The notes under the pieces are model-generated. The model had not been told where the DNA came from. It saw only the letters and a list, made by a program, of their open reading frames with translations, and made no database searches. From Hyphococcus sp. (GTDB taxonomy: Bacteria; Pseudomonadota; Alphaproteobacteria; Caulobacterales; Parvularculaceae), in assembly GCA_028284345.1 (NCBI GenBank), contig JANQRY010000003.1:310001-374000 (forward strand): a stretch of DNA of 64,000 nt, in the 5' to 3' direction. The translations under genes and the position numbers were made by a program. Positions within the stretch are counted from its first letter, which is position 1, and each line of letters begins with the position of its first letter. This document shows positions 26,687 to 51,399 of this stretch, piece after piece.

Positions 26687-26698
26687 AACTATATAGTA
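26687..26698. promoter_or_regulatory. Island palindrome (one mismatch) upstream of tetR
   Basis: AACTATATAGTA matches TACT-N4-AGTA at seven of eight positions and is followed by TT, extending the similarity to the copy upstream of the nitronate monooxygenase operon (ATACTATA core on the other strand). Confidence 0.55.
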
Positions 26699-26788
26699 TT
26701 GCTCGTCTCCGCCAAATATGCGCCGTCAAGACGCGTGAAATAACGACATATCAATCATATTGACGCTGACGCCCATCGCCTGAATCCA

Positions 26789-27883
26789 CTATGCGTCCAA
26801 TCCCCATGTCGCAAGTCGCGCGTTGTTGTCACTCAAAGAATTGATGCGGCCCGGCGTCCGGGAAAATCGCGGCGCAGGCGCCGGATGCAACACGCCGTCA
26901 ATGGTCTGATATACGCCCCGCGCCGCCATATGCGGATGATCCGGCGCCTCCTGAAGGCTTAGCACGGGCGCAAAACACGCGTCGGTGCCCTCCAACAATT
27001 CGCACCACTCGCTTTGCGAGCGTTGTGCGAAAACCTCTTCGAGGATTTTCACCTTTTCCGGCCAGGTCGACGCGTCAAATTGTTTGTGTAAAAGATCCCC
27101 TTCAACGCCAATCAATTTCAGCATTTCGGCGAAGAAATGCGGCTCAATCGGGCCTACAGAGATTTCCTTGTCGTCCGCACAAATATAGCAGCGGTAAAAT
27201 GGGGCGGCGCCGCCCAGGACGCTTTTTTCGCGGTCGAGCGAAATGCGGTCGAGTTGTCCAGCGAAAAACGACATCATCGACGCGGCGCCGTCTACGATCG
27301 CTGCATCGATGACCTGCCCCTTGCCGGACACAGATCGCTCCAAAAGCGCTGACACTACGCCCAAGGCAAGGAATAGAGAGCCGCCGCCAAAATCACCAAC
27401 GAGATTTAGCGGGGGCGAAGCAGGATCGTCTTTCTTTCCGATTGCGGCCAAAGCGCCCGTTAGCGCAATATAGTTGATGTCATGTCCTGCGGATTTGGCG
27501 AGCGGCCCATCTTGACCCCAGCCTGTCATTCTACCGTAAATCAAGCGCGGATTTAGCTCATGCGCCGCTTCCGGCCCCAGCCCTAAGCGTTCCATCACGC
27601 CAGGCCTGAACCCTTCGATAAGGACATCAGCGCGGCCGATGGCTTTAAGCGCCGTTTGTCGCCCCTCATCGGACCGGATGTCTAGAACCAACTTTGCCTT
27701 GTTCCGATCGGACACTGGGTTGGGCCAACCATTGCCTCCTTCGCGATCAATAAGCAGCACATCCGCGCCCAAATCCCCCAATAGTTGCGCGCAATATGGT
27801 CCCGGCCCCAGACCGCCAAATTCCACAACACGAATTCCGTCCAACGGTCCATAGCGTTCGGATTTTTCATTGGCGTCCATCAT
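26789..27883 (-). CDS. Alpha-methylacyl-CoA racemase (CaiB/BaiF family III)
   Basis: Interconverts (2R)- and (2S)-2-methylacyl-CoA so that alpha-methyl-branched chains can enter beta-oxidation. The 364-aa length matches AMACR/MCR. The catalytic His134 is in SAGHDINYIALTGAL and Asp164 in VGDFGGGS, corresponding to His126/Asp156 of the mycobacterial racemase; the CoA-binding start GPGPYCAQLLGDLGADVLLI is clear. Other class III CoA-transferases lack the GHDINY pattern, which favours racemase over transferase. It is last gene of the eight-gene operon, its ATG overlapping the stop of the upstream crotonase gene. Its presence is the strongest hint at a methyl-branched substrate. Confidence 0.85.
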   Translation of the reverse strand: MMDANEKSERYGPLDGIRVVEFGGLGPGPYCAQLLGDLGADVLLIDREGGNGWPNPVSDRNKAKLVLDIRSDEGRQTALKAIGRADVLIEGFRPGVMERLGLGPEAAHELNPRLIYGRMTGWGQDGPLAKSAGHDINYIALTGALAAIGKKDDPASPPLNLVGDFGGGSLFLALGVVSALLERSVSGKGQVIDAAIVDGAASMMSFFAGQLDRISLDREKSVLGGAAPFYRCYICADDKEISVGPIEPHFFAEMLKLIGVEGDLLHKQFDASTWPEKVKILEEVFAQRSQSEWCELLEGTDACFAPVLSLQEAPDHPHMAARGVYQTIDGVLHPAPAPRFSRTPGRINSLSDNNARLATWGLDA

Positions 27884-28659
27884 GCAAAATCCGGTTTTCG
27901 TCGCTCCAGAAATGCGTTCACCCCTTCCATCGCGTTAGGCTCAACGGCGCAATGAGCGATCGCCTCCGCCTCGCGTTCCAATTGGGCTTCCAATTCCCGA
28001 CTTGTCGATTGAAGGAGCAAACGCTTAGCGCGCGCCAGGGCCGGGATCGACATCCTGGCAATCTTGCTAGCGGCTTTCTGCGTCTCCTCGTATAGTTGTT
28101 CATCCGGCGATGTTCGCGTGATTAATCCACACGCTTCAGCCTCATCGGCGCTAAACGTTCGGCCTAGATAAATCATTTCCTGCGCGCGGCGTAAGCCGAC
28201 AAGCCTCGGCAACAGGAAAGACACGCCCGCGTCGGGAGACAAGCCAATGCCGGGATAAGCGACGGAGAAATTCGCCGACTGCGCCGCAATGACGACGTCC
28301 CCGACCAGCGCCAAACCAAGTCCCGCACCGGCCGCAGGACCATTCACAGCAGTCACGATCGGCTTGGACAAACCAGCCAGGCGTGCGACCGCCATGTGTA
28401 AGGAGCCGGTCATCTCCCGAACAAAACGTGGGAGATTATCGGACGCGCTCGCAAAGGCGTTAATGTCGCCGCCGACGCAGAAGAATCGACCGACCCCGCT
28501 GAGAAGCACGCATCGCACGTCTTCAGTCGTTTCCATGGTGTGAACGGCGTCGAGCAACTGATCACAAAAGACCTGATCAATGGTATTGCCGTCGTCGCCC
28601 CGATCAAGGGTGATGCGACCAATAGAATCAGAGATTTCAACGGAAAAACGGGCGGTCAT
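27880..28659 (-). CDS. PaaG-like enoyl-CoA isomerase/hydratase (crotonase family)
   Basis: A 259-aa crotonase-fold protein. The oxyanion-hole region is AVNGPAAGAGLGLALVGDVV and the second active-site region is SVAYPGIGLSPDAGVSFLLP. Neither hydratase glutamate is present (Gly at both positions), while the Asp in SPDAG matches the catalytic acid of PaaG and Delta3,Delta2-enoyl-CoA isomerases. Double-bond shifting, as needed for unsaturated chains, is therefore more likely than hydration. It overlaps the SDR gene upstream (ATGA at 28656-28659) and the racemase downstream, so all three are translationally coupled. Confidence 0.82.
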   Translation of the reverse strand: MTARFSVEISDSIGRITLDRGDDGNTIDQVFCDQLLDAVHTMETTEDVRCVLLSGVGRFFCVGGDINAFASASDNLPRFVREMTGSLHMAVARLAGLSKPIVTAVNGPAAGAGLGLALVGDVVIAAQSANFSVAYPGIGLSPDAGVSFLLPRLVGLRRAQEMIYLGRTFSADEAEACGLITRTSPDEQLYEETQKAASKIARMSIPALARAKRLLLQSTSRELEAQLEREAEAIAHCAVEPNAMEGVNAFLERRKPDFA

Positions 28660-29417
28660 TTCGGCGCCATCCTGATTGCGCCATCAAGGCGGATTGTCTC
28701 CCCGTTCAACATGGGGTTGCCAATAACCGCTTCGACCATCTGCGCGTATTCCTCTGGTTTTCCGAGTCTGCTTGGAAACGGTACTTGCATGCCAAGCGAC
28801 TGTTTCGCCGGTTCAGGCAGCCCTTCCAGCATTGGCGTCAGAAAGATTCCTGGCGCAATTGTCATGACACGGATACTTAGCGAGGAGAGGTCCCTCGCCA
28901 TGGGAAGCGTCATGCCGACAACGCCGCCTTTAGAAGAGGAATAGGCGGCCTGGCCAATTTGCCCGTCGAAAGCGGCGACGCTCGCCGTATTGATAATGAC
29001 GCCGCGTTCTTCTTCATCAATTTCAAGCGCGGAAAGACGAGCCGCAAATTTGGAGGCGACATTGAAGGTGCCGACGAGATTGACCTCTATGACCTTGCGG
29101 TAAACGGCAAGGTCGTGCGGTTCGCCTTCTCTTCCTACGGTCTTACTCGGCGTACCGATTCCCGCGCAATTAACAAGGATCCGCGCCGGTCCATTATTTT
29201 TCTCCGCTTCCTCAAGAGACGCTACAACGCCTTCGTCGCTTGTCACATCCGTCCTAAAGTAGCTGGCGTTAATCGACGAGGCGAATTCCAATCCCGACTT
29301 ATCGTTGACGTCAAATATGGCGACCTTTGCGCCATTTCTGACGAGCATCTCAGCCGCGGCGGCGCCAAGGCCGGAGGCGCCGCCAGTGACCACTGCGGGC
29401 GTTTCTTTTAAATTCAT
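28656..29417 (-). CDS. HSD10-like 3-hydroxyacyl-CoA dehydrogenase (SDR)
   Basis: A 253-aa classical short-chain dehydrogenase with TGGASGLGAAAAEML for NAD binding, an NCAGI motif, catalytic Ser in NTASVAAFDG and Tyr-Lys in YSSSKGG. The C-terminal block APGIFLTPMLEGLPEPAKQS, followed by PFPSRLGKPEEYA, is diagnostic of type 10 17-beta-hydroxysteroid/2-methyl-3-hydroxybutyryl-CoA dehydrogenases. These oxidise straight and 2-methyl-branched 3-hydroxyacyl-CoAs, which fits the neighbouring racemase. The ATG at 29417 is preferred over a GTG six bases earlier. It overlaps the next gene and follows the FadJ-like gene by about 20 nt. Confidence 0.87.
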   Translation of the reverse strand: MNLKETPAVVTGGASGLGAAAAEMLVRNGAKVAIFDVNDKSGLEFASSINASYFRTDVTSDEGVVASLEEAEKNNGPARILVNCAGIGTPSKTVGREGEPHDLAVYRKVIEVNLVGTFNVASKFAARLSALEIDEEERGVIINTASVAAFDGQIGQAAYSSSKGGVVGMTLPMARDLSSLSIRVMTIAPGIFLTPMLEGLPEPAKQSLGMQVPFPSRLGKPEEYAQMVEAVIGNPMLNGETIRLDGAIRMAPK

Positions 29418-29438
29418 CAGCACTCGCCTTATCTAAAT

Positions 29439-31577
29439 TTATGCCGCATTACGGCTCGGTTTTTTGTAATAAGTCCGGCCAGTTTCAGCCATCTCCCGCA
29501 GCCCTTCTGGCGGCGCAAAGCGCACGCCATATTCTTCAACAAACGCATCGCAGTCCGCCACAAACTGCGCAGGACCACAGGCGTCAATGTAACTGAGCGG
29601 TCCCCCGGTCCAGGGAGCGAAGCCCCATCCCAATATCGCGCCGACATCCGCTGCACGCGGATCGTTAATAACGCCTTCGTCGAAACAGCGCGCTGCTTCG
29701 AGAGCCTGCCGATGCAGCAATCGTTTTTTGATTTCACCAACGACACGGACCGGCTCAGTCGCAGTCGCTGGCAGTAGACTTGTCAGACCCGCCCATAGGC
29801 GCTTCGGACCGTCATCCGGATAGTCATAGAAACCGGCGTCCGCCTTGCGGCCCGTCCGTCCGCGCTTCACCAACTCAGCCATTACCGCTTCATATGGCCG
29901 TTCGTCATAGTCGGCGCCCAAAGCCGTCTTGGTTTGATCAAATATTCTGACAATAAGATCGAGCGCAACATCATCTGCGATTTCCAATGGCCCGCGCGGC
30001 ATGCCGGTCATGCGCCCGACATTTTCAATCAGTGGCGCGGGCAAGCCCTCAACAAGCATTTCCGCGCCTTCATAGATATAGGTGCCGAAACAACGGCTCG
30101 TATAGAAGCCGCGACTGTCGTTGACGACGATTGGCGTTTTCCCGATCGCAACCGAATAGGCGACGGCGCGCGCGACCGCCTCATCACTGGTCTTCTCGCC
30201 GCGGATGATTTCGACAAGCTCCATCCTATCGACCGGTGAAAAGAAATGGATGCCGATGAAATTTTCCGGCCGCGAAGACGCCTCGGCCAGCCCCGTAATG
30301 GGAAGCGTCGAAGTATTTGACCCAAGTAGCGTATCTTCCGGAAGTCGCTGTTCAATCTGGCGGATCACGTTGTGCTTCAGGTCAATGTTTTCAAACACCG
30401 CCTCTACAACGATGTCCGCGCCATCAAGAGCGTCATAGCTTGACGTCGTTGAAATACGATCCAGAAGCGCTGCGCCGTCCTCCTGGCTCATGCGCCCTTT
30501 CTTCACCGCCTTTTCGACGAGCCCGCGTGAATAGTCTTTGCCCTTCTCGGCGGTCGACTCGTCAACATCGATCAAGACCGTATCCATTTTGCGGGCGGCC
30601 TGCGCATATGCGATGCCCGCGCCCATCATCCCGGCGCCGATAATGGCCGCGCGTTTTGGGGGATCGGCCTTCTTGGCCCAATCGCCGCCTCTACTCAGCG
30701 CCTGCTTCGACAGGAACAGAGAGCGGACCATATCTCTCGCCTGCGGCGTCGCGCATGAATTGATGAAATACCGTTCCTCAACTTTCAGGCCCTTGTCTAT
30801 AGCAAGGGGAAACCCTTCAAACACGCATTTGAGAATATTCTCCGCCGCCGGATAATTTCCATAGGTTTCTTTACGGAGCATCGCATTGCCGGCAACGAAC
30901 AGCTGCATGCCCTTTGGCGAAAAAGGCAAGCCTCCCGGCGCCTTGAACCCGCGCTCGTCCCAACGCGCAACGGGATTCCCGTTTTCCTTGAGCCATTTGC
31001 GCGCCGCTTCGATGGTCTCGCCAGCCGGCGCCAGCTCATCTATCAGACCTATTTCTTGCGCCTTGCGCGCATCGACAGGCCGACCTTTCAAAAGCATTGG
31101 AAGCGCTTCCGCCATACCGACCAGCCGCGGCAAGCGCTGCGTCCCTCCCCCGCCCGGCAGCAAGCCCACATTCACCTCGGGCAGTCCAAGCTTAACGGAC
31201 TTTGCATCCGCCGCCACGCGATAGTGACACGCCAAAGCGAATTCGAGTCCCCCGCCGAGCGCCAGCCCCTCTATGGCGATGGCGATCGGCTTGCCGACCG
31301 TTTCCAATTTTCGGTACAGCGCGGCGAGCGGAATGTCGTTGATCCGCGTTCCTGCATATTCAGCAAGATCCCCGAGATCAGCGCCCGCACAGAAATTGCC
31401 AGCCTTTCCTGAGCAAACGATCACGCCTTTGATTTTCTCACTGCTGGCGATCATGTCGATGACCCGCGCCAACTCTCTAATCGCGCCGTCGGTCAGCGTG
31501 TTCATGGACCGACCAGGAACATCAAATGTCAGGAGGGCAATGCCCTCGCCATCAATGTCAATTTTAAAATTTTCCAC
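29439..31577 (-). CDS. FadJ/FadB-type bifunctional enoyl-CoA hydratase/3-hydroxyacyl-CoA dehydrogenase
   Basis: A 712-aa multifunctional beta-oxidation enzyme. The N-terminal crotonase domain (1-190) has both hydratase glutamates in GGGLEFALACHYR and GLPEVNVGLLPGGGG. The central NAD-binding domain (about 305-490) begins RAAIIGAGMMGAGIAYAQAA and contains GIHFFSPVDRMELVEIIRG with the catalytic His. Two helical dimerisation repeats follow (510-712). The start is a GTG at 31577 with GGGGATTGGAG upstream. It sits between the thiolase and HSD10-like genes; having both a FadJ dehydrogenase and two SDR dehydrogenases suggests successive cycles on structurally different intermediates. Confidence 0.93.
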   Translation of the reverse strand: MENFKIDIDGEGIALLTFDVPGRSMNTLTDGAIRELARVIDMIASSEKIKGVIVCSGKAGNFCAGADLGDLAEYAGTRINDIPLAALYRKLETVGKPIAIAIEGLALGGGLEFALACHYRVAADAKSVKLGLPEVNVGLLPGGGGTQRLPRLVGMAEALPMLLKGRPVDARKAQEIGLIDELAPAGETIEAARKWLKENGNPVARWDERGFKAPGGLPFSPKGMQLFVAGNAMLRKETYGNYPAAENILKCVFEGFPLAIDKGLKVEERYFINSCATPQARDMVRSLFLSKQALSRGGDWAKKADPPKRAAIIGAGMMGAGIAYAQAARKMDTVLIDVDESTAEKGKDYSRGLVEKAVKKGRMSQEDGAALLDRISTTSSYDALDGADIVVEAVFENIDLKHNVIRQIEQRLPEDTLLGSNTSTLPITGLAEASSRPENFIGIHFFSPVDRMELVEIIRGEKTSDEAVARAVAYSVAIGKTPIVVNDSRGFYTSRCFGTYIYEGAEMLVEGLPAPLIENVGRMTGMPRGPLEIADDVALDLIVRIFDQTKTALGADYDERPYEAVMAELVKRGRTGRKADAGFYDYPDDGPKRLWAGLTSLLPATATEPVRVVGEIKKRLLHRQALEAARCFDEGVINDPRAADVGAILGWGFAPWTGGPLSYIDACGPAQFVADCDAFVEEYGVRFAPPEGLREMAETGRTYYKKPSRNAA

Positions 31578-31589
31578 GGCTCCAATCCC

Positions 31590-32795
31590 CTAAACGCGCT
31601 CGATAACCGTCGCCGCGGCCTGTCCCGCGCCGGCGCATAGTGTGACAAGCGCCGTGCTTTCTCCGCGGCGCTCCAACTCGTCCAGAACGGTCCCCAAAAT
31701 CATCGCACCGGTCGCGCCCAACGGATGTCCCATCGCGATCGCGCCGCCATTCACATTGATTTTTTCATGCGGGATATCGAGCGCGTTCATCATGCGAAGC
31801 ACGACGGCGGCGAACGCTTCGTTCAACTCATAAAGATCAATATCCTCGGGCTTCATACCGAGCCGGCTAAGCAGCTTCGTCGAGACGTCCGCCGGCCCCG
31901 TGAGCATGATGCACGGCTCCGAACCGATCGACGCGCCGCCGAGCACTTTCGCCCTTGGCGTAAGCCCGAGCGCATCGCCGACCTCACGCGAACCGATCAG
32001 GACGCCCGCCGCGCCATCAACGATCCCTGAGGCGTTACCGGCGTGATGAACGTGGTTGACGAACTCAACCTCCGGATAGCGTTGGATGGCGACCGCATCA
32101 AAAGCCATCTCCCCCATATCCGCAAATGAGGGCTTCAGCGCGGCCAACCCGTCCAGAGAAGCGTCGGGCCGCATATGCTCGTCACGATCAAGCGCAATAT
32201 CGCCAGCCTGATCACGCACGGGCACAATAGACTTAGTAAAAAACTCGCCTTCCCAGGCCGTCGCCGCGCGTCGCTGGCTCTCGACCGCATAGCTATCGAC
32301 ATCTTCCCTGCTATAGCCGTCAATCGTCGCAATCAGGTCGGCGCCGATACCTTGTGGCGTGAAGTAATTCTTTAGTGCAGAGCTGGGATCGATTGGCCAG
32401 GCGCCGCCATCGGAATTGATCGGCAGTCTGGACATACACTCAACCCCGCCGCCAATCGCCAATCGCGCCTCTCCCGCCATGACCTTGGCTGCCGCCATAT
32501 TGCAAGCGTCAAGACCTGACGCGCAAAATCGATTGACCTGAATGCCCGACGTCGTCTGAGCATAGTCCGCCATAAGCACGGCGGTTCTCGCGATATCCGC
32601 ACCCTGATCGGCGACTGGCGAAACGCATCCATAGATCACGTCGTCAACATAATTCGTGTCAAGATCGTTGCGGTCTCGGATCGCCTCCAGAACCTGCGTC
32701 CCAAGCGAGAGCGGCGTAATTCCGGACAATGATCCATCAGGGCGCCCTTTTCCGCGCGGCGTCCGCACGGCGTCATAAATAAATGCTTCAGGCAT
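31590..32795 (-). CDS. Acetyl-CoA acyltransferase (thiolase)
   Basis: Degradative thiolase that cleaves 3-ketoacyl-CoA to acetyl- or propionyl-CoA and a shortened acyl-CoA. The 401-aa product has nucleophile Cys91 in QVNRFCASGLDACNMAAAKV, the His of GGAIAMGHPLGATGA and the second Cys in LCAGAGQAAATVIE. The ATG at 32795 is chosen (MPEAFIYDAVRTPRGKGRPD), with GAAGGGGCG about nine bases before it; the frame continues upstream but without family similarity. It sits 12 nt upstream of the FadJ-like gene. The lack of SCP2-thiolase features argues against a sterol-specific thiolase. Confidence 0.92.
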   Translation of the reverse strand: MPEAFIYDAVRTPRGKGRPDGSLSGITPLSLGTQVLEAIRDRNDLDTNYVDDVIYGCVSPVADQGADIARTAVLMADYAQTTSGIQVNRFCASGLDACNMAAAKVMAGEARLAIGGGVECMSRLPINSDGGAWPIDPSSALKNYFTPQGIGADLIATIDGYSREDVDSYAVESQRRAATAWEGEFFTKSIVPVRDQAGDIALDRDEHMRPDASLDGLAALKPSFADMGEMAFDAVAIQRYPEVEFVNHVHHAGNASGIVDGAAGVLIGSREVGDALGLTPRAKVLGGASIGSEPCIMLTGPADVSTKLLSRLGMKPEDIDLYELNEAFAAVVLRMMNALDIPHEKINVNGGAIAMGHPLGATGAMILGTVLDELERRGESTALVTLCAGAGQAAATVIERV

Positions 32796-32821
32796 TAGCC
32801 ATCGCCCCTTCTTTGCTTCGC

Positions 32822-33595
32822 TTAGCCCCGCTGACCGCCGCTGCCCACTTTCGTACGGGCTTCGAGCATGCGTTTCGAAATTTCCGGATTCCAATGAACG
32901 TCGCGGTACTGGACATGGCCGTAAACATAAGCCGCAAGGGGATCCATCGCAGAACTGCGACGCACCATCTCTGTGCAACGAACCACGGTTTCGACAGAAG
33001 TCGAGGCGATCTCACTCGCCATTTTCTGCGCTGAAGCAAGTAGCTCACCCGCAGGGGCAATCTCGTCGACGAGTCCTATTCGCAGCGCCTCATTGACGTC
33101 GATTCGACGCCCTGTCAGCACAAGCATTTTCGCATAACTCGGCGGAATTAGGCGCATCAACGGATCGACAAAGGGCGTTAAACCGAATTTAATTTGAGGA
33201 AAACCGAACTTTGCGTTGGGCGCCGCCACGCGCATATCGCAGAACGCTGCGATGTCGCACCCGCCGCCGAGCGTGGCTCCGGCCACAGCAGCAATCGTGG
33301 GCTTGGGGTACTCTAAAAGCTCCAGATAGCCGTAGTAGGTTGCATCATACCAACGAAGGCGGTCCGCCTCAGTTTTCCAGTTCATTGTGTCTAGATCGAG
33401 CCCCGCCGAAAAATAGTCCTCTGTACCGGTAATTACGACGGCGGCCACGCGATCGTCCCGTCGCCAAGGAGTCAGTGTTTCAACCAAGTCCTCAAACAAC
33501 TCAGTACTCAAAGCATTTCTTTTCTCAGGACGATCAAGGTAGACTGTCGCCACTCCGTTTTCAATTTCCGAGCGCATCGTCCCGTGCTTAGCCAT
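32822..33595 (-). CDS. Crotonase-family protein with Asp/Gln active site
   Basis: A 257-aa crotonase fold: DRPEKRNALSTELFEDLVE, the oxyanion-hole strand YFSAGLDLDTMN, YPKPTIAAVAGATLGGGCDI and KFGFPQIKFGLTP. At the two positions that are Glu in enoyl-CoA hydratase it has Asp (GGGCD) and Gln (FPQ), so ordinary hydration is doubtful. A hydratase/lyase, isomerase or C-C hydrolase role is possible. The crotonase at 38096-38902 shares the same pair. Start ATG 33595 (GGAG eight bases upstream) is preferred to a TTG at 33628. It is third gene of the large operon. Confidence 0.8.
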   Translation of the reverse strand: MAKHGTMRSEIENGVATVYLDRPEKRNALSTELFEDLVETLTPWRRDDRVAAVVITGTEDYFSAGLDLDTMNWKTEADRLRWYDATYYGYLELLEYPKPTIAAVAGATLGGGCDIAAFCDMRVAAPNAKFGFPQIKFGLTPFVDPLMRLIPPSYAKMLVLTGRRIDVNEALRIGLVDEIAPAGELLASAQKMASEIASTSVETVVRCTEMVRRSSAMDPLAAYVYGHVQYRDVHWNPEISKRMLEARTKVGSGGQRG

Positions 33596-33673
33596 AACTT
33601 CATCTCCATAGGTACGAATTGACAACAACTTACCCTCCCTCCCCCAAACGGGAGGAAGGAAACTCTCAAAAAA

Positions 33674-34828
33674 TCATAAAGACCTTGCAATCAGCATACG
33701 CATTACTTCATTAGCGCCGCCGTAAATTCGATGAATCCGGGCATCGCGATAAAGTCTTGCAATGGGATATTCGAGCATATAGCCGTAGCCGCCGAACATC
33801 TGCAGACACCCGTCTATGATGCTAGTGGCGCGCTCCGACACCCAATACTTAGCCATAGAAGCAGCCGTTGCGTCGAGCTCGCCCCCCAGCAACAGTTTTG
33901 TGCAATGACCGCAAAACACGCTCGCAATTGTCGCCTCGGTCTTGTACTCGGCTAATTTAAATTGCGTATTCTGAAAATCCGCCAGGGTCCGCCCGAACAT
34001 CTTGCGCTCTTTTACATAAGCAATTGTCTCAGCAAGAGCGCGCTCAATCATGCTTATGGCTTGCCAGGCGATAACAAGGCGCTCTTGCGGCAGTTTCGCC
34101 ATCAGCTGCGGCAGCCCTTTTCCCTCTGCGCCGCCGAGCAAATTTTCATCAGGCGCAAAAACATCCTCGAAGAACAACTCGGACGTATCCTGACCTTCCT
34201 GGCCGAGCTTCTCCAGATTGCGACCACGCTCAAATCCCTCGCAGCCATCCGTCTCAACAATAAAAAGAGAAAGCCCCCTCGAACCCGCTTCCGGATTCGT
34301 TTTGGCTGCCACTAAGACGAGGTCGGCAAGCTGACCGTTCGAAATGAACGTCTTCTGACCGTTCAGCCGATATCCGCCATCTACCTTTTTGGCGGTACAA
34401 CGCATGGATTGAAGATCGGAACCGGCGCCGGGCTCGGTCATCGCGATCGCGCTCACGAGCTCGCCCGAGCACAAGCGAGGCAGCCAGCGGCGCTTTTGTT
34501 CCTCTGTCGCGAACGCCGTGAAGTAGGGAAGAACGACCGCATTGTGCAAGCTGATCGCGAGGGCGTCAGCGCCGCGATGAGCCACCTCTCTAATGATCAC
34601 GACTTCATGGCGAAAATCGCCGCCGCCGCCGCCATACGCCTGAGGGACTGATACGCCGAGCAACCCGGCTCTACCCGCCTCGCTCCAGACCTCGCGGTCA
34701 ACCATCTTGTTTTCACGCCAGCGCTCTATCGCTTCCGGACTGGCATGTGCATCGAGAAAGCCAGCAACGCTTCTCTCGAATAATTCAACCTCGTCAACAG
34801 ACATAAAATCTTCACGATGCAACGTCAC
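33674..34828 (-). CDS. Acyl-CoA dehydrogenase (LCAD/IVD-like)
   Basis: FAD enzyme that introduces the alpha,beta double bond. The 384-aa protein has IAMTEPGAGSDLQSMRCTAK and LNGQKTFISNGQLADLVLVA (FAD-binding). Its C-terminal segment is IYGGANEVMRMLIARSL, where medium-chain enzymes carry the catalytic Glu (YEG) but this has Gly. As in long-chain and isovaleryl-CoA dehydrogenases, the base is more likely Glu267 in ALAETIAYVKERKMFG. The GTG at 34828, with GGGGGAG eight bases upstream, is the best start; an ATG at 34804 is the alternative. It is second in the operon, 14 nt after the nitronate monooxygenase gene, and the only acyl-CoA dehydrogenase in the island. Confidence 0.92.
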   Translation of the reverse strand: MTLHREDFMSVDEVELFERSVAGFLDAHASPEAIERWRENKMVDREVWSEAGRAGLLGVSVPQAYGGGGGDFRHEVVIIREVAHRGADALAISLHNAVVLPYFTAFATEEQKRRWLPRLCSGELVSAIAMTEPGAGSDLQSMRCTAKKVDGGYRLNGQKTFISNGQLADLVLVAAKTNPEAGSRGLSLFIVETDGCEGFERGRNLEKLGQEGQDTSELFFEDVFAPDENLLGGAEGKGLPQLMAKLPQERLVIAWQAISMIERALAETIAYVKERKMFGRTLADFQNTQFKLAEYKTEATIASVFCGHCTKLLLGGELDATAASMAKYWVSERATSIIDGCLQMFGGYGYMLEYPIARLYRDARIHRIYGGANEVMRMLIARSL

Positions 34829-34842
34829 GCCGTTTGCTCCCC

Positions 34843-35916
<1,074 letters not shown>

Positions 35917-36010
35917 TTATAACTATAAGTATTACATAGGGTTTTCGACTTTTCGGAACCTTTTTCATTGCCGGTACGGCTACGCATTGACGCGTCGACC
36001 GTCATAATTA

Positions 36011-36022
36011 TACTAATAAGTA
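36011..36022. promoter_or_regulatory. Island palindrome (perfect) upstream of the feruloyl-CoA synthase-like gene
   Basis: TACTAATAAGTA, about 160 nt upstream of the ligase start. Its reverse complement, TACTTATTAGTA, is exactly the copy found at 47312-47323 before the second ligase gene. Confidence 0.6.
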
Positions 36023-36182
36023 AAATAGATGGCCGCTACGGCCTTAAAAATGCGGCGTTATCGAAGGCGCCGGCCAGGCCCATGGGAACCTGAAACTGAC
36101 AGGGGACGATCCAGAATCCGCTAATCCGGATATCGAGGGCGCCTTAACGCTGATGACCGTTGCGCAAGGAAAAAGGGCTAGG

Positions 36183-38902: not shown

Positions 38903-39003
38903 GTTGTACAATCGCCTTCTCTTCGGACTAACTGCGGCCTAAGAGATAATATTGCCGCTTGCAGAGAATGCTTACTCATCAAGCGGCGTTTAGCAGCATT
39001 CGC

Positions 39004-39043: not shown

Positions 39044-39140
39044 CTTTTCTAAACAGATCGCCGCGGCGCTTTTGAAATGTCTGCGCCGAAAACGTCCGGT
39101 CGGCGTTGATCACTCTTCTCGATCAACGAAGCGCGTTTGG

Positions 39141-41450: not shown

Positions 41451-41924
41451 TCTTTGTCCCTCCCTGGTGCTGGATCGCCGATCACGACAGCCAGCGTCAT
41501 TTTTTTGAGTTGACCAATCACGCTTTCCGTCTGGTCTTGTCTAATCGCATGCTCTGACCGCCGCTGAAGCCTAGGCCGCCAGCAAATCAGGTTAACCACT
41601 TTACTCGCTGGTATCATATCCATAGCGTCAAATAACAAACTTGTCCATTTTTTTACGTGACGTCATATTTTTGGCAGGCTTTGCCATACCCTACCAAGCG
41701 GCGGAAAAAACGCTGCCGGTTTATCTGTCTTTGCCCCGTGTTTTCGTAAAAATAGGCTGGAATCAGCATGTTGGAGGCGGGTTCGTCGCCATGGACGGCC
41801 CTGTGTCATTTTAGATACTGGTCGGTAATTTATTTGCCCGCGCCTGTCGTCGCCCATCGGCCTTTCAATCTGGCCGCCGGTCAGGCCTTGCCGCGGGAGC
41901 TTGGTCTTGAGGGAGCGAATAACG
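41451..41924. promoter_or_regulatory. Intergenic region upstream of the TonB receptor gene
   Basis: The 474 nt between the receptor start and the KAS stop hold TACTCGCTGGTA (41602-41613, one mismatch to TACT-N4-AGTA) and an 8-bp palindrome TGACGTCA (41658-41665). Short open frames exist but show no family similarity. The right part, next to the KAS stop, has no recognisable feature. Confidence 0.45.
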
Positions 41925-43190: not shown

Positions 43191-43577
43191 GCCATGTCTC
43201 CTTTTTGCTCGCGCCCCGAAAACCCAAGCACGCGGTTTACTTCGCTGACGGCCAAATTCCGCCGCGCCGAGCGAAGGCGCGCTGCGCATTTAGCGTATGG
43301 ATATCGTTATACGATTTTTTTGCGTTTCGCAATATTTTTGGCATATAAATATCGCGCGGCGCGACCAAACCACCTGCATTGACCGGCGCATACATTGTGC
43401 ATAATTACGGTGACAGTCTGTTCGCAGCGCGCAATCCAGTCGGGGGCTGTGATCCGACGCGGCCTTATCACCAACCCGCACGCCAAAATTAGCAACCCTG
43501 TCCGAAGCACACCGCCAAAAGATGAGGAGCCTTTTGCAACAAACAATCCACCGGTCCCGGGCAACGACGAGTATTTT
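43191..43577. promoter_or_regulatory. Divergent KAS/PaaX intergenic region with inverted repeat
   Basis: Contains CGTAT-N10-ATACG (43294-43313), with GATATC in the spacer, followed by an AT-rich stretch with seven T. It lies about 105 nt upstream of the KAS TTG and 265 nt upstream of the paaX-like ATG. It could be the operator of the PaaX-type protein. A frame upstream of 43578 stays open to 43395 and could extend the regulator, but shows no PaaX similarity. Confidence 0.4.
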
Positions 43578-44381
43578 ATGCTCATCCAGTTAAATGGCAG
43601 CGGGTACGGATTGTTGATGGTGACTTTGGGCGAGTTCATCTGGCGCGGCGCGCAACCGGTCGCAGTCTCCACGATCATTACCGCGTTAAAATCGCTGAAC
43701 GTTTCAGAAAACGCCGCGCGCAAGGCGATTCATCGCGCTAGAAAGGCCGACCTGATCGCAACTGAGCGTCGAGGAAGAGAATCGTTTTGTCGGCTGACCA
43801 GTGCGGCGAATACGTTATTTGAGGAAGGCTCCAACCGCGTATTCGGACTTTTCGACAATGTCGAAGAATGGTCCGGCGAATGGCTGATACTCTCTGTGTC
43901 GGTTCCCGAGTCTCAGCGCGCCCTTCGTCACAAGCTTCAAACGCGCCTGCAATGGAATGGGTTTGGATCTCCCTCACCCGGCATTTGGATTTCGCCGCAC
44001 CCCAACAGACCCCTCGACAAAGTCTTACAGGAAATCGGGAATGTCTCCCATGAAATGTCCTTCATTGGCAGTTTCGGACCGGTCGGGGACGAACGCGCGA
44101 TGGTTCACGCAGCCTGGGATGTCGATGAGATCGCGCAGTGTTACAAAGACTTTCTCAAACAAGCTAAATCGTTGCGGCCTGTCGGAGAAGAAGAAGTCTT
44201 TCGTGATTTCATCAAGTTAATTCACGCATGGCGAAAATTTCCGTTCATCGATCCGGTTTTGCCGGCGCAGCTTTTACCGCAACCATGGATTGGGCGCACT
44301 GCAGCCCAATTTGTAAAAGAGCGGCGCGCAAGCTGGAAGCCGCAGGCGAAGAATTATTGGACGGCCATTCAATCCGGCTAG
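43578..44381 (+). CDS. PaaX-family transcriptional regulator
   Basis: A 267-aa regulator with the three PaaX parts: an N-terminal winged helix (GYGLLMVTLGEFIWRG, then SENAARKAIHRARKADLIAT, matching the PaaX recognition region), a central WSGEWLILSVSVPESQRALR Cas2-like domain with WISPHPNRPLDKV, and the C-terminal PaaX_C region FIKLIHAWRKFPFIDPVLPA followed by QLLPQPWIG. PaaX represses phenylacetate degradation and binds phenylacetyl-CoA in E. coli; relatives in other clusters sense other acyl-CoAs. The start is not certain. It faces the KAS gene across a shared control region. Confidence 0.85.
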   Translation: MLIQLNGSGYGLLMVTLGEFIWRGAQPVAVSTIITALKSLNVSENAARKAIHRARKADLIATERRGRESFCRLTSAANTLFEEGSNRVFGLFDNVEEWSGEWLILSVSVPESQRALRHKLQTRLQWNGFGSPSPGIWISPHPNRPLDKVLQEIGNVSHEMSFIGSFGPVGDERAMVHAAWDVDEIAQCYKDFLKQAKSLRPVGEEEVFRDFIKLIHAWRKFPFIDPVLPAQLLPQPWIGRTAAQFVKERRASWKPQAKNYWTAIQSG

Positions 44382-44491: not shown

Positions 44492-45352
44492 TCAGCTACG
44501 CAGCGTTGCGGACAACGAGTCCGCGGTAGTTGTTGGGTAGTCCGCACCCGAAGAAAAATCGCCGACCAGGCGCCATGCGGACAGCACCCCTTCTGGGGTT
44601 AAATCGTCGAACCGAACCCCTGCGCTTCTCTCCCACCGCATCTTGCAGGCTCTGCCGCCGCCAACCTCAACGACAGCGCCGGTTTCGGTGGCGCGCGGAT
44701 GCACCAACGCCAGAGCGACGGGCGAAACGGCTTCCACAGTGAGCGCTGCTTTTAACGCCGGCGTGAAAACGTCCGCCGTCATTTCCGTCAGCGCCATTGG
44801 CGCGATCGCATTAACCCGAATATTATACCGGGCGCCTTCGAGCGCCAGCGTCTTCGCGAGACCAATGACACCCGCTTTTGCCGTTGCATAATTTGCTTGT
44901 CCGAAATTACCGTGCAAGCCCGCGCCGGAGGTGGTGAAAAGAATATTGCCCGAAGCCTGCTGACGCATCGGCTCCCAGACGGCCTTCGCGCAAGAAAAAG
45001 ATCCGCCGATATGCACGGACAACACTTCGTCCCAATCTTCCGTCGTCATTTTTGCAAACGAGCTGTCTCTGACAATGCCGGCATTGACAATTAAACTGTC
45101 AATTTTGCCGTATGCCCGGAGCGCCGCTTCGATGATTTTTGCGCCATCCCTTGCGTCGGCCTGGACCGGATTGGCCGCGCCGCCCAAGCGGGCGATCTCT
45201 TCGGCGACCTCGAGGACCGCATGACTGCGACCAGCCAGCGTCACCTTCGCACCGGCTTTCGCTAAATCCAGGGCGTACTGGCGCCCCAGCCCTTGCCCGG
45301 CGCCGACTACGATCGCGCAGAACCCGGAAAAATCAGATGTTGGCGCGGTCAT
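44492..45352 (-). CDS. SDR 3-hydroxyacyl-CoA dehydrogenase-like protein (MFE-2 type)
   Basis: A 286-aa short-chain dehydrogenase. NAD-binding VVGAGQGLGRQYALDLAKAG, NAGIVRDSSFAKMTTEDWDE, catalytic Ser in FTTSGAGLHGNFGQ and Tyr-Lys in YATAKAGVIGLA. The sequence NAGIVRDSSF...NFGQANY and the later ALVHPRATETGAVVEVGGG resemble the (3R)-hydroxyacyl-CoA dehydrogenase part of peroxisomal multifunctional enzyme type 2. The opposite stereochemistry to FadJ would provide a second oxidation route. The ATG at 45352 follows AGGGAGGG; an upstream in-frame start at 45418 is less likely. Probably downstream of the ligase gene on the same strand. Confidence 0.82.
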   Translation of the reverse strand: MTAPTSDFSGFCAIVVGAGQGLGRQYALDLAKAGAKVTLAGRSHAVLEVAEEIARLGGAANPVQADARDGAKIIEAALRAYGKIDSLIVNAGIVRDSSFAKMTTEDWDEVLSVHIGGSFSCAKAVWEPMRQQASGNILFTTSGAGLHGNFGQANYATAKAGVIGLAKTLALEGARYNIRVNAIAPMALTEMTADVFTPALKAALTVEAVSPVALALVHPRATETGAVVEVGGGRACKMRWERSAGVRFDDLTPEGVLSAWRLVGDFSSGADYPTTTADSLSATLRS

Positions 45353-45395
45353 CGATACCCTCCCTTTTCGCTCCCAATTTCGGCATACATTGGGT

Positions 45396-45443
45396 TTCGG
45401 AGCGACGGATCGTTTCACTCATGGGGTAAACCGCCGCTCCGAA
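45396..45443. promoter_or_regulatory. Inverted repeat between the second ligase and SDR genes
   Basis: TTCGGAGCG (45396-45404) and CGCTCCGAA (45435-45443) form a perfect 9-bp inverted repeat 30 nt apart, extended by ACGG/CCGC. It lies 40-90 nt upstream of the SDR start and about 90 nt beyond the ligase stop. There is no T-run, so an operator is more likely than a terminator. Confidence 0.4.
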
Positions 45444-45530
45444 GTCAGGTTGATCACTGTACTGCATAAACTACGCCTAAAGCCGAAAGGCGAGCGACGT
45501 TGCGCCGGCTACGATAGAGCGCGGCTCTTA

Positions 45531-47222
45531 TTAAGACCCATAGGTTTCACCGAGGCATGCAAAGCGGTCTTTTAATTCGTATTTCTTAATCTTGCCGGCA
45601 GGCGTCCTGGGCATTTCGTCAAGGACTTCGACAAATTCAGGCCAGAATTGTTTAGCCATGCCAGCTTCGGCGAGGCGCTCTTGCACATCGCCTAGCGTGA
45701 TATTCGCATCATCCGTAACAAGGACAGCACAGCCGCGCTCGCCCATCCGCGGATCGGGAACGCCAATCACCGCAACATCCGATACCTGCTCCATTTTCAA
45801 AATTTCATTCTCAATTTCAATAACAGGAATGTTCTGGCCGCCGCGTATAATGATATCCTTGGTTCTGCCAGAGATACGAATTCCGCCATCCGGCGTTCTG
45901 TAACCCTGGTCTCCCGTGTCGAACCATCCATCGGGCGTCTTCATTTCCTCGGTCAGGTCCGACTGTTTGTAATAGCCGGCAAAAATGTTTGGCCCTTTCA
46001 CATGAAGGCCGCCAGCATCGCCGTTCTTAACAAGAACGCCATTGTCATCCGCTATGCGCACATCCATCCAGTCGACCGGCATACCGTCGCTGGCCGCCAG
46101 CACTTCCACCGGCGCCCCCGCCTGGTGGATGGAGCAGATGCCCACCTCAGTGCATCCCCACAACGAAATCAAACCAACTTGAAATTCGTCTTTGAAATCG
46201 CGAGCGACCTGGGGAGGAATTGTCGCCCCGCCACAAGCGAAAGCTCGGAGCGAAGCGGTTGACCTTTTGCGCCTTTTGCTCGCTTCCACCAGATCCGTCG
46301 CGAAGGGCGTGGCGCTCAAAGTCCAGGTAACGCCCTCGGACTCAATAAGATCCAGCATCTGGTCCGGATCCCAAACATCCTGGTACACCAGCTTTTGCCC
46401 GGTAGAGAGCGGCAACATCGTACCCCAATAAAAGCCCGTCAGATGCCCGACCGTCGAAGCCATGAACGCCACGTCTTCAGACGTCAGTTCGATCGCTTCG
46501 GGGAGCGCGCGCCCGGTGGACCAGATCGTATTATACGTGTGCATTGCCGCTTTTGGGCTTCCTGTGGTGCCGGAGGTGAACAGCAAGGCTGCAACATCAT
46601 CCGCTCCAGGCGTTCGCCGCTCAAGTTCGTCCAGCAATCCGGGCTCTTTTTCCCATTCCGGTTTCAAAAAATCGTTTTCCAGATCGAGGCACTGCGCGCT
46701 TTTTCCGCCAACCACACACAGATGCTCCAGCGTCTCGACATCTTTCAAAACGTTCCGCCCAAGAGTGGCGTGATCAAACCCCTTAAAGGAATCCGGCACA
46801 AAGAGCATTTTGCTTCGGGCATGCCGGACCATAAAAGAGACTTCCCGCTCGCGATAGATCGGCGGGATCGGGCTCACGACTGCGCCCGCTCGCATGCATG
46901 CAAACGCAATCAGAGAAAAGCGCCAACTGTTTTGAAGTTGCACAGAAATGACGTCATTTCGCTTAATCCCCTTGGCTACGAATGCGCAGGCAACCCGATC
47001 CACCAGGCGCCGTAACGCGCTATAGGAAATTTTCGATAGGCTGCTTTGTCCATGTGTAGCTGTCACCACCGCCGTCTTCTCGGGTGCTTTCTCTGACCAC
47101 GCCAGAAACCCGTCCAAAGCGGTGACGTCTCGCCACCAACCGTTCCGGCGATAGAGTTTTGCATCGTCTGCGGAGTGAGTGGCGCGCCAGACATCCACGC
47201 CAAATGGACTTTTTGCAACCAA
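45531..47222 (-). CDS. AMP-dependent acyl-CoA synthetase (cyclohexanecarboxylate-CoA ligase-like)
   Basis: An ANL-superfamily ligase of about 563 aa. ALLFTSGTTGSPKAAMHTYN is the ATP-binding loop, SLWGCTEVGICSIHQ the A5 motif, GWFDTGDQGYRTPDGGIRIS and GRTKDIIIRGGQNI the hinge, and PAGKIKKYELKDRF carries the catalytic Lys. N-terminal GWWRDVTALDGFLAWSEKAP is typical of the AliA/2,3-dihydroxybenzoate-like subgroup that activates cyclic or branched acids. The start is uncertain: a TTG at 47222 has GGGAGG ten bases upstream; a TTG at 47246 would add eight residues. A perfect TACT-N4-AGTA site lies about 90 nt upstream. It is downstream of lysR on the same strand. Confidence 0.87.
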   Translation of the reverse strand: MVAKSPFGVDVWRATHSADDAKLYRRNGWWRDVTALDGFLAWSEKAPEKTAVVTATHGQSSLSKISYSALRRLVDRVACAFVAKGIKRNDVISVQLQNSWRFSLIAFACMRAGAVVSPIPPIYREREVSFMVRHARSKMLFVPDSFKGFDHATLGRNVLKDVETLEHLCVVGGKSAQCLDLENDFLKPEWEKEPGLLDELERRTPGADDVAALLFTSGTTGSPKAAMHTYNTIWSTGRALPEAIELTSEDVAFMASTVGHLTGFYWGTMLPLSTGQKLVYQDVWDPDQMLDLIESEGVTWTLSATPFATDLVEASKRRKRSTASLRAFACGGATIPPQVARDFKDEFQVGLISLWGCTEVGICSIHQAGAPVEVLAASDGMPVDWMDVRIADDNGVLVKNGDAGGLHVKGPNIFAGYYKQSDLTEEMKTPDGWFDTGDQGYRTPDGGIRISGRTKDIIIRGGQNIPVIEIENEILKMEQVSDVAVIGVPDPRMGERGCAVLVTDDANITLGDVQERLAEAGMAKQFWPEFVEVLDEMPRTPAGKIKKYELKDRFACLGETYGS

Positions 47223-47311
47223 CGCCAGGCGGCCTCCCTGCCGCAATGATTATTTATCCGCCAGTCGGCTACTGCAATCGCAGCGCAAATCTTGAAGGCG
47301 GAGCCCTATAA

Positions 47312-47323
47312 TACTTATTAGTA
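47312..47323. promoter_or_regulatory. Island palindrome (perfect) upstream of the second ligase gene
   Basis: TACTTATTAGTA within ATACTTATTAGTAT, a 14-bp near-perfect palindrome, 90 nt upstream of the ligase start and between lysR and the ligase gene. It is the exact reverse complement of the core at 36011-36022. Confidence 0.65.
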
Positions 47324-47417
47324 TCTTGCTGATATCAGAGATTGCCCTGAAGCGCAATCCGGTTCCCCGTTTTCGCCGCTTTTCATCAAAACAAGCCGCT
47401 TATTTGCCGCCTAAAGG

Positions 47418-48320
47418 TCAGCCTTCAAACGACCCGCAATCCCTTAAGGCTCTAACCAATGAACGCACCGCGCGCGAGGGTTCGCCCCCCTTTGTCGAAG
47501 CGATGATAATTTGATGCCGATCAAAAAAATCCAGATCCAGAATGGAAAACCGTCGGCGAAAGGATTTCGCTGCTGCGTATTTTGTGCTGACAACGCCGAT
47601 TGAATTTGTTCCCGCAACGAGGTCTGCAATGATTGGGAAGTACTCAATGACGTGAACATTATAGGCGTTGCCTCCCTCCGTTTCTGAAAAGGCGCCGCGC
47701 AACTTCTCGGCATATATTCCAACCCGATCAGGTGAAATAATCTGATAACTCCTCAGATCGTCAACCGTCGCCTTGGCGGACGCCAAAGGGTGCTTTTTTC
47801 GGACAAAGAAGTGCGCGCCGACGACGCCAAGCGGTATTTCGTTCAATCCGGAAAAGGGCGCAACATCACATTTAGGCGCCACCAGAACGTCCAAATCGCC
47901 GCAGCGCAAACCACCGATGCTTTGCTCGAGCGTTGAGGCGTAAAGTTGAATGTATATATCGCGGTTTTGAACGAGGAGCTTTCTAAGCGCTTGATTTAGC
48001 AACCCCTGCAGCGAAGCAGGACTGACGCCCAGGCGGATGGAATGCTGCGCCGTATTTCGGTAAGCGGATGCTTCAGCGGATAGCTTGCCAAGATCTAAGA
48101 CGATGCGCCTTGCTCGGTTCAAAAATATGCGCCCTCTATCCGTCGCGACCATATCCCGCGCGCTTCGATCAAAAATGGCGTAACCCAGCTCTTTCTCTAG
48201 ATTTGCGACGCTTTTCGTGACCGCCGACTGGCTGATGTTGAGCGCCTCCGCAGCGACTGTGAAGGACCCGAAGCGATCGACGGCGACGACGCGCTGTAAG
48301 TTCGTGGAATTGATCATCAT
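47418..48320 (-). CDS. LysR-family transcriptional regulator
   Basis: A 300-aa regulator with an N-terminal winged helix (QRVVAVDRFGSFTVAAEALN, then ISQSAVTKSVANLEKELGYA) and a C-terminal periplasmic-binding-protein-like effector domain (HSIRLGVSPASLQGLLNQAL, GLRCGDLDVLVAP). LysR proteins usually activate a neighbouring gene in response to a pathway metabolite. Here the nearest same-strand target is the acyl-CoA ligase gene downstream, and the divergent target is the NTF2-like pair. ATGATG at 48320 follows TTGGA. No LysR box could be assigned with confidence in the upstream region. Confidence 0.9.
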   Translation of the reverse strand: MMINSTNLQRVVAVDRFGSFTVAAEALNISQSAVTKSVANLEKELGYAIFDRSARDMVATDRGRIFLNRARRIVLDLGKLSAEASAYRNTAQHSIRLGVSPASLQGLLNQALRKLLVQNRDIYIQLYASTLEQSIGGLRCGDLDVLVAPKCDVAPFSGLNEIPLGVVGAHFFVRKKHPLASAKATVDDLRSYQIISPDRVGIYAEKLRGAFSETEGGNAYNVHVIEYFPIIADLVAGTNSIGVVSTKYAAAKSFRRRFSILDLDFFDRHQIIIASTKGGEPSRAVRSLVRALRDCGSFEG

Positions 48321-49211: not shown

Positions 49212-49243
49212 GTTTGCAGGCCCCCGGCGCATTGGAGAAAAAC

Positions 49244-49642: not shown

Positions 49643-49644
49643 CA

Positions 49645-50550
49645 TTACTCTGTCGTCTGGTCAGCTTTGTCCTTTTGATTTTGACGCTCAATAGATTGTC
49701 GAGCTTGCGCCCATTGATCGTCCGTCCAGGCGCTGAGATCTGAAAAGTTTCCTCCTGTCGCATTAAATAAGGCGCCATCAATTGCGATTGTCTGTCCGTT
49801 TACATACTCGGCGCCAGGCGCCATCAGAAAAATGGCGAGATTTACAAGCTCGTGCATCTCGCCTGCGCGTCCCATTGGGTTGCCTCGCCCAGTACTCATA
49901 AGCTTTTGTCCCTCTTTATCCGGCGCCAGACGATTAGACATGCCTTCTGTTGGGAATGGCCCAGGCGCTATGGCATTGTGGCGGACGCCATATCGACCCC
50001 ATTCAACCGCCAAGGATTGGCTCATTGCGTTCACGGCCGCCTTTGACATTGCGGATGGGACCACAAAGGGTCCTCCATTCCAGACCCACGTTGCAAGGAT
50101 CGAAAGCACGTTCCCAGGTTCGCCATCATTTATCCAACGTTTTCCAACATTATGAGTCATATAAAACGTTCCTCGAAATACGATGTTTGAAATCGCATCG
50201 AAACCTCGAATGGAAAGATCTTCAGTGCGCGATATAAAATTGCCGGCTGCGTTATTCACTAGACCGCTAAGCGGGCCATAGTCACCCCAGATTCGCTCAA
50301 CCATTTGATCGATTACGTCAGGGTCCCTAATATCGCAAACGTGGGGAACGACGGTTCCGCCATGCTGTCTGACAAGTTCATTTGCCGTGTCCTCACAGAT
50401 CTGTCTTCGACGACCACAGATATGAACTTCGGCGCCCATTTTCAGAAAGCCTTCGGACATTTCCTTACCAAGGCCAGAGCCCCCGCCCGTTATCAAAATA
50501 CGTTGACCGCTCATCAATCCATCGCGGTACATGAGTTTCGAAATATCCAC
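49645..50550 (-). CDS. 2,4-dienoyl-CoA reductase-like SDR
   Basis: A 301-aa SDR. TGGGSGLGKEMSEGFLKMGA binds NADP(H) (CGRRRQ with Arg residues after beta2), NNAAGNFISRTEDLS follows, and the active region is WVWNGGPFVVPSAMSKAAVN. The Tyr of the usual YxxxK is replaced by Ser, as in mitochondrial-type 2,4-dienoyl-CoA reductases, which share the VVPSA..K pattern. It probably reduces a dienoyl- or enoyl-CoA, letting unsaturated chains enter beta-oxidation. A GTG at 50550 with AAAGGGA eight bases upstream is preferred over an ATG at 50610. A perfect 16-bp palindrome with the island core lies about 215 nt upstream. Confidence 0.84.
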   Translation of the reverse strand: MDISKLMYRDGLMSGQRILITGGGSGLGKEMSEGFLKMGAEVHICGRRRQICEDTANELVRQHGGTVVPHVCDIRDPDVIDQMVERIWGDYGPLSGLVNNAAGNFISRTEDLSIRGFDAISNIVFRGTFYMTHNVGKRWINDGEPGNVLSILATWVWNGGPFVVPSAMSKAAVNAMSQSLAVEWGRYGVRHNAIAPGPFPTEGMSNRLAPDKEGQKLMSTGRGNPMGRAGEMHELVNLAIFLMAPGAEYVNGQTIAIDGALFNATGGNFSDLSAWTDDQWAQARQSIERQNQKDKADQTTE

Positions 50551-51399
50551 GTCTGATCCCTTTGTGTTTTTGCTAAGCAATAAAAAGCGGCGGGCTACGC
50601 GCGCCCGCATGAAGGTTAGGTTTCACTCTATCTTCCGCGTGTTTCGTCGAAAGTCTGATTGGTCGGGAACGCGCTGGGCGGTCGATACTCAATTTCGGCG
50701 TTTTGGGTTTCCGGGCGAATGTATTTCGAGGCGAACATCTCAACCCGCGCTCCGTTACGCACTACTCATCAGTAGTTTAATGTCGTGTATTCGGCAGGCC
50801 CTTTTGGGTCAAGTTCGGGATTTCGCCGCCTATCAGGACAACAATGTAGATTTTTGGCCTAACGCATCGGTTGCTTTCTCGTTTGCCGACGGGCTTTTCG
50901 ATTGAGATTTTACCTATCGCTCCCGAGCAGAGGAGGACTATGTAAACCCCAATTCATCAGGTCGGGTCTTAGATCCCGGGTTAGCTTCGTCAGCCTTTTA
51001 ATCACGGCTAAATGGATCGGCGTGAAATCGATCCGGAAAGGCGTGCGTCACGAAATCCGCGGCGCTGACGCCCCCATCCTCCAAGAGCACGCTGATCCCA
51101 TTCAGGCAGCCCTCCGCCTCTCGGCGTTCAGCGGTGATTGCATCGATCGTCCGTTCGGCAAACTCTGCGCGGGTCGCCGCGATGCGTACACTGGATTTTT
51201 AGTGGGCGTAGAGTGCTGATCGCAGAAAGCGGCAAGCCGCCCGCGCTATAGCAACGCGCGCAGCCAAGGCGAACCTTCCAAAAACTGACAAAAAGGCGTG
51301 CGGCCAGGGAAAATTCTGACCCTATAGAGGCCCTATTTGGCGCAGCAAATAATTCGGATTTTTGGCGTTATCGTAAGCCACTGTATTTGCTTCTAAAAA
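50551..51399. other. Gene-poor right end of the island with a coding remnant
   Basis: Apart from the palindrome at 50763-50774 no intact gene is evident in these 849 nt. On the minus strand 50998-51198 is an open stretch without start codon whose translation (TRAEFAERTIDAITAERREA, ending HAFPDRFHADPFSRD) looks like the C-terminal part of a real protein of unknown family. Its N-terminus is cut by a stop at 51199-51201. The last 150 nt before the tRNA are AT-rich and contain no recognisable gene, and no integrase is seen. Confidence 0.45.
50763..50774. promoter_or_regulatory. Island palindrome (perfect) upstream of the DECR-like gene
   Basis: TACTCATCAGTA lies inside the perfect inverted repeat ACTACT-N4-AGTAGT (50761-50776). 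It is the copy nearest the tRNA-Trp boundary and about 215 nt upstream of the reductase GTG. Confidence 0.6.

Follow-up and report, generated by a model that had tools for sequence, protein, structure and literature searches.

What reads a palindrome that recurs between the genes of a catabolic island, and which of those genes does it bring under common control? The question is raised by a 64,000-nucleotide stretch of Hyphococcus sp. DNA (contig JANQRY010000003.1, positions 310,001 to 374,000; hereafter the window, in whose numbering coordinates are given unless another genome is named). Within it lies an acyl-coenzyme A (acyl-CoA) island, extending from two thioesterase genes (24513) to a 2,4-dienoyl-CoA-reductase-like (DECR-like) short-chain dehydrogenase/reductase (SDR) gene (50610), which contains three regulator genes, TetR, PaaX-like, and LysR-like, as well as repeated copies of the palindrome TACT-N4-AGTA. 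We propose that this palindrome is very probably the operator of the island's own autoregulated TetR repressor, which would control about six transcription units.

The palindrome is present in five perfect copies in the window, at 35838, 36011, 41429, 47312, and 50763, whereas dinucleotide shuffling gives a mean of 0.04 copies per window and a maximum of 1, with none of 100 shuffles reaching five. When up to one mismatch is allowed, 12 places are found against a shuffled mean of 2.43, and the seven one-mismatch copies comprise three in intergenic DNA (26687, 41602, and 41816) and four inside genes (11150, 24542, 42443, and 49553). An earlier reading of these letters, made without database searches (the sequence-only reading), had located four perfect and two one-mismatch sites exactly where we find them, had recognized the copies at 36011 and 47312 as exact reverse complements of each other, and had rightly estimated that less than one copy would be expected by chance. 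It had seen no other intact copy by eye, thereby overlooking the fifth perfect copy at 41429 (TACTGGTGAGTA), and its list of one-mismatch copies lacked 41816 and the four inside genes.

In the whole genome (3,413,434 bases) there is no perfect copy beyond these five, all of which fall in 15 kb (a span of 14,937 bp) inside the island. The chance that five random copies would share such a span, computed after the cluster had been seen, is about 2e-9. The genome has 95 places at up to one mismatch, and thus 90 with exactly one, of which about 1.7 would fall in the window if they were spread evenly, compared with the seven observed. It is the clustering that is unusual and not the number, because perfect copies number between 0 and 5 in each of 27 congeneric genomes (68 in total), and the same pattern read backwards, used as a control, occurs 18 times in this genome. 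In a scan of 4-base arms at spacings of 0–10, TACT-N4-AGTA ranks second in the window by Poisson tail, with five copies seen where a second-order Markov model predicts 0.07, and its ratio of observed to expected copies is the highest among the 25 patterns listed.

The tetR gene itself (26000..26638, minus strand; PF00440 and PF17932) is directly followed on the same strand by two thioesterase genes (24513..25952), which, given gaps of 47 and 54 bp, probably form one unit with it. A candidate operator with one mismatch (26687..26698) occupies its promoter. The sequence-only reading had placed its sites ahead of the units that they would serve, which holds for 26687 with respect to tetR but not with respect to the eight-gene operon (26789..35832, minus strand), because 26687 lies downstream of that operon and it is the perfect candidate operator at 35838..35849 that precedes it. 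Judged by gene content, this is an acyl-CoA oxidation operon, encoding in order of transcription an NMO-like protein, an acyl-CoA dehydrogenase, a hydratase, a thiolase, a FadJ-like protein, an SDR, a second hydratase, and a CaiB-type CoA-transferase. Between the operon and the gene for CoA ligase 1 (AMP-binding; 36153..38003, plus strand) there is a weak, possible third operator with two mismatches (35920..35931), and a perfect candidate lies at 36011..36022, on the –10 element of the ligase gene.

The TonB-dependent receptor gene (39141–41450, minus strand) and the enoyl-CoA hydratase gene downstream of it (together 38096..41450, minus strand) are probably one unit, and the interval separating the two genes has no site at up to two mismatches; candidate operators with one mismatch are found upstream of the receptor gene at 41602..41613 and, farther upstream, at 41816..41827, in addition to the perfect candidate at 41429..41440 within the gene. 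CoA ligase 2 and the SDR downstream of it (44492..47246, minus strand), again probably a single unit, are preceded by a perfect candidate at 47312..47323, and the DECR-like SDR gene (49645..50610, minus strand) by another at 50763..50774, about 150 bp away. The pairs 35838–36011 and 41429–41602 are both spaced 173 bp apart, possibly by chance and possibly in connection with looping. No site at up to two mismatches precedes the beta-ketoacyl-synthase-like gene, paaX (43395..44381, plus strand), lysR (47418..48320, minus strand), or the first SnoaL gene; the regulon envisaged by the sequence-only reading accordingly comprises several units with sites, but not the whole island.

Two of the candidate operators coincide with elements recognized in a promoter scan: the one at 36011 overlaps the –10 of TTGACG-16-TATACT, and the one at 26687 overlaps the minus-strand –10 of the tetR promoter, TTGGCG-16-TATAGT. 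We also scored the window with a position weight matrix (PWM) built from 18 sites of distant TetR homologues (see below); these were chosen by the pattern, and the core of the matrix is therefore imposed. The top scores in the window belong to 36011 (22.4), 47312 (18.3), 41429 (16.2), 50763 (14.6), and 41602 (14.1). The best score in 15 random windows, 14.7, is surpassed by the first three of these alone. The scores of 35838 (12.8) and 41816 (11.9) lie within the random range, as do those of two places taken as background, namely 56577 (13.0) and the coding copy at 11150 (12.8).

Membership of the regulator in the TetR family is indicated by its TetR_N helix-turn-helix (PF00440), which scores 51.7 bits (cut-off 24). 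An AlphaFold2 model (pLDDT 80.5), computed from a two-sequence alignment, has an all-helical, TetR-like fold, for which the best match is PfmR (TM 0.74/0.83); the best 50 matches also include DarR, as well as AibR and Bacillus FadR in structures that contain isovaleryl-CoA and stearoyl-CoA, respectively. The score for the NCBIfam equivalog of Bacillus FadR (NF053878), 31.1 bits, is far below its cut-off of 200. As would be expected of an autoregulated repressor, the palindrome is found, by sequence alone, at the regulator's own promoter (26687) and at those of its putative targets (the five perfect copies).

Among the named genome contigs, a single relative of the TetR protein was found, in Hyphomonadaceae bacterium UBA5336 (46% identity). 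Besides TetR, eight island proteins are matched above 40% in 76 kb of the UBA5336 contig, at identities of 42–77%; these matches include ligase 1 (62%), the acyl-CoA dehydrogenase (66%), hydratases (68 and 69%), SnoaL (75%), the DECR-like SDR (77%), and the TonB receptor (42%). A search at E 1e-8 detected neither the PaaX- nor the LysR-like protein in the 20.6-kb UBA5336 locus, and nothing above 40% identity to either was found in the 76 kb, the part of the contig that was searched; TetR is therefore the regulator common to both islands. The palindrome is conserved in this second island: one perfect site precedes the UBA5336 tetR start by 94 bp, and another, at 182200, lies over the –10 (TTGACC-17-TATACT) of the operon that includes the 62% ligase, so that the arrangement of –35, TATACT, and operator is alike at the ligases of UBA5336 (182200) and the window (36011). 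One-mismatch copies are present in UBA5336 intergenic DNA at 157101 (between tetR and SnoaL) and at 158654 and 158814 (between two SDR genes), with a further one at 134218, distant from the island matches. The UBA5336 stretch also encodes a second, more distant TetR (185140–185733), located between the ligase and a hydratase; upstream of its gene there is no site at up to one mismatch.

For a broader view, we considered the 400 bp upstream of 33 further TetR homologues, of which 20 came from 23 plasmid hits (H30, H31, and H36 were excluded for having scores equal to rows already included) and 13 from GTDB genomes (one of the 15 rows of the order-level search, the second G771 copy, having been excluded). 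A perfect copy is present in 10 of the 33, and 18 have a copy if one mismatch is tolerated. Of the 256 possible half-sites at a spacing of 4, TACT/AGTA has the most perfect copies in these promoters, the next, which is G+C-rich, having 5; several G+C-rich half-sites equal it at one mismatch. Changing the distance between TACT and AGTA to any other value in the range 0–10 leaves at most one perfect copy. Promoters lacking the site are grouped on the TetR tree (6 changes against a mean of 12.0 after shuffling, with 0 of 500 shuffles as low), and a supported clade of 20 TetRs (98/95) has the site in 17 of 20 cases, compared with 1 of 13 outside it. The clade was chosen from the tree once the site scores were known, and it includes close relatives, among them four from Azospirillum. 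Shuffling the 20 clade promoters 100 times gave no perfect copy and a mean of 0.66 promoters at up to one mismatch. The TetRs of the window and UBA5336 fall outside the clade, and the operator is therefore common to two branches.

Nine whole plasmid records (7.8 Mb), selected among the 20 plasmid hits for having a promoter site, contain 14 perfect copies. Of these, 8 lie at the tetR homologue, and four of the nine records have no perfect copy other than the one there. Genes for acyl-CoA enzymes or CoA ligases are found in 15 of the 17 annotated homologue neighbourhoods (20 records, three without annotation). Among 30 DECR-like loci, taken as the best from the 105 genomes in which a match was found, a site with at most one mismatch lies within 400 bp upstream in both of those with the TetR and in none of the 28 without it.

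The clade promoters differ in form from those of the island. In 10 of the 20, a second copy (at up to two mismatches) is offset by exactly 19 bp, whereas the remaining distances between 12 and 40 bp together account for two cases. No such 19-bp partner occurs at any window or UBA5336 site; UBA5336 182200 has a two-mismatch partner at 18 bp, and 50763 has a partner at 15 bp. These spacings suggest that pairs of dimers would occupy the clade operators and single dimers those of this island. We give roughly even chances to the wider proposition that a so far undescribed TetR subfamily, which guards clusters for acyl-CoA catabolism across Alphaproteobacteria and Acinetobacter, has TACT-N4-AGTA (more broadly TACTC-RY-GAGTA) as its conserved operator. 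The usual form of this operator would be a 19-bp tandem at the regulator's divergent promoter, bound by two dimers side by side, while single palindromes over several promoters, here and in UBA5336, would have extended a switch acting at one promoter to a regulon spanning the island.

The sequence itself shows that the copies cluster in the island alone, that they are placed at promoters, and that they are conserved alongside TetR; binding, repression, and the inducer are what we infer beyond this, with odds set by judgement. That TetR binds the palindrome we hold with high confidence, that it represses is probable, and acyl-CoA is the favoured candidate for the inducer, on the basis of fold matches and gene content. 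In the proposed circuit, a TetR dimer would bind TACT-N4-AGTA, over the –10 at the two clearest promoters, and would thereby shut off tetR with the two thioesterase genes, the eight-gene beta-oxidation operon, and both CoA ligases, and likewise the TonB receptor and the DECR-like reductase. Once substrate had been taken up, a ligase would convert it to an acyl-CoA, which most likely releases the repressor, and uptake, activation, and oxidation would therefore start together. The single TetR-controlled regulon put forward in the sequence-only reading is thus supported at the level of sequence, since the perfect site is confined to the island in this genome, recurs with TetR in the UBA5336 island, and has counterparts upstream of distant homologues; the same reading's choice of an acyl-CoA as the switch is plausible from the protein family and gene content.

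Several observations weigh against this interpretation. The promoter scan recognizes no consensus promoter at 47312, at 50763, or at the TonB gene, and at 35838 the sole promoter points in the wrong direction. The tetR site at 26687 has a mismatch, and its PWM score of 7.2 is within the random range, while the perfect copy at 41429 sits in coding sequence (codons 4–8 of the TonB receptor gene). In UBA5336, the TonB homologue (170884–168650) has no site nearby at up to one mismatch, and three further perfect copies, of which two are coding, occur in the genome away from the island. Finally, 15 of the 33 distant homologues have no site at up to one mismatch.

An alternative that shares the binder is that TetR activates, or that it senses a ligand other than acyl-CoA, for example, a nucleotide. 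DarR, whose ligand complexes are among the best fold matches, responds to a nucleotide, the NCBIfam model of the activator FasR is matched weakly (40.6 against 330 bits, far under the cut-off), and the absence of consensus promoters at several sites would also be compatible with activation. However, a site that falls on the –10, as it does at 36011, tetR, and UBA5336 182200, fits repression, and the annotated homologue neighbourhoods are mostly acyl-CoA catabolic, which makes this alternative unlikely. Still less probable, to a degree that we would call slight, is that the PaaX-like (43395–44381) or LysR-like (47418–48320) protein binds the palindrome. Both are encoded in the island, and the 47312 site lies just downstream of lysR, but neither gene has a site of its own within two mismatches upstream, as tetR does within one; both proteins are unmatched in the searched UBA5336 stretch, where sites are nevertheless present, and the distant homologues with sites were selected by TetR alone. 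That the copies merely reflect AT-rich, –10-like DNA in the promoters of one low-G+C island is scarcely credible even though TACT is part of TATACT and two copies coincide with –10 elements, given the shuffled expectation for the window, a genome full of promoters with no perfect copy outside the island, and the recurrence of the palindrome in UBA5336 and before TetR homologues, where shuffled clade promoters yield no perfect copy.

The TetR circuit that we favour is of a familiar kind. FadR of Bacillus, AibR, and PfmR of Thermus are acyl-CoA-responsive TetR repressors with targets in lipid or acyl-CoA catabolism. The window TetR shares the fold of these regulators, which are among its best matches, but it is only 18–27% identical to them in this comparison of folds. 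The Pseudomonas TetR repressors AtuR and RdmA control the catabolism of acyclic terpenes and of diffusible signal factor (DSF), and their operator is given as AGCAAGCGCTTGG and its complement (PMC9973270). Like the window TetR, they adjoin a catabolic acyl-CoA cluster, and they have inverted repeats at a divergent promoter, but the island word is TACT-N4-AGTA and not AGCAAGCGCTTGG. EdcR, a TetR repressor of estradiol catabolism in Caenibius tardaugens, likewise governs an island that contains beta-oxidation genes as well as a TonB receptor, and its palindrome also covers the –10 (PMC8700777); the arm spacing of its proposed operator, TnnCnnTACnAnTnGTAnnGnnA, is different, however, and EdcR has another C-terminal Pfam domain, PF16859. 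The beta-proteobacterial TetR regulators LiuQ and FadP are named without a motif in the accessible section of PMC5343134.

In a literature search that covered few subscription papers, the spelled-out core turned up just once, in the LysX box predicted for Desulfovibrio (GTGGTACTNNNNAGTACCAC; regulator of COG1378, lysine genes; PMC545781). This box contains the same core within a longer palindrome, and no relation to the window operator is seen. Titles retrieved with exact or degenerate 12-mers of the operator were unrelated. The operator thus appears to be undescribed, with those of AtuR and EdcR having been compared.

At E 1e-20, TetR was not found in the 27 genus and 32 family genomes searched, and among the 105 genomes with a DECR match the only family member is the organism's own; the island was therefore probably acquired. 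In wider searches, TetR was found in its own genome only (385 genomes of the class, E 1e-35), in UBA5336 alone (150 relatives of UBA5336, E 1e-42), in its own genome plus one distant homologue (398 genomes of the phylum, E 1e-38), and in UBA5336 with distant homologues in 10 other genomes (398 genomes of the order). As regards the substrate, searches of solved structures yielded no ligase match at 1e-20, only generic hydratases, and a long-chain acyl-CoA dehydrogenase as the nearest match to 33674–34828. The beta-ketoacyl-synthase-like gene (41925–43289), usually of a biosynthetic kind, stands beside the PaaX-like regulator inside this catabolic island.

Five of the enriched palindromes from the arm and spacing scan were placed on the window map. 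TGACGTCA has 12 copies against about 1.8 expected (second-order Markov model), in and outside genes, for example, at 41658, 46949, and 35469. It was rejected as a rival operator, with one copy (41658) upstream of the TonB gene, three in island genes, and eight outside the island, and so were the GACG-N1 and TCGA palindromes, whose island copies are all in genes. Two near-identical inverted repeats, 15 kb apart in intergenic-looking DNA (3238–3310 and 18252–18325; TCCCGGCGAAGGCCGGG ... TCCCGGCCTTCGCCGGG), resemble a repetitive extragenic element.

The assignment of the palindrome to TetR is firm enough to be put to use: it tells which units of the 26-kb acid-degradation island belong together, and predicts that uptake, activation, and oxidation answer to one signal. 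It also provides a pattern with which to look for the regulons of proteins that are annotated in databases as 'TetR/AcrR family transcriptional regulator', and the two forms of the operator, the 19-bp tandem and the dispersed single palindrome, would make operator evolution testable within one subfamily.

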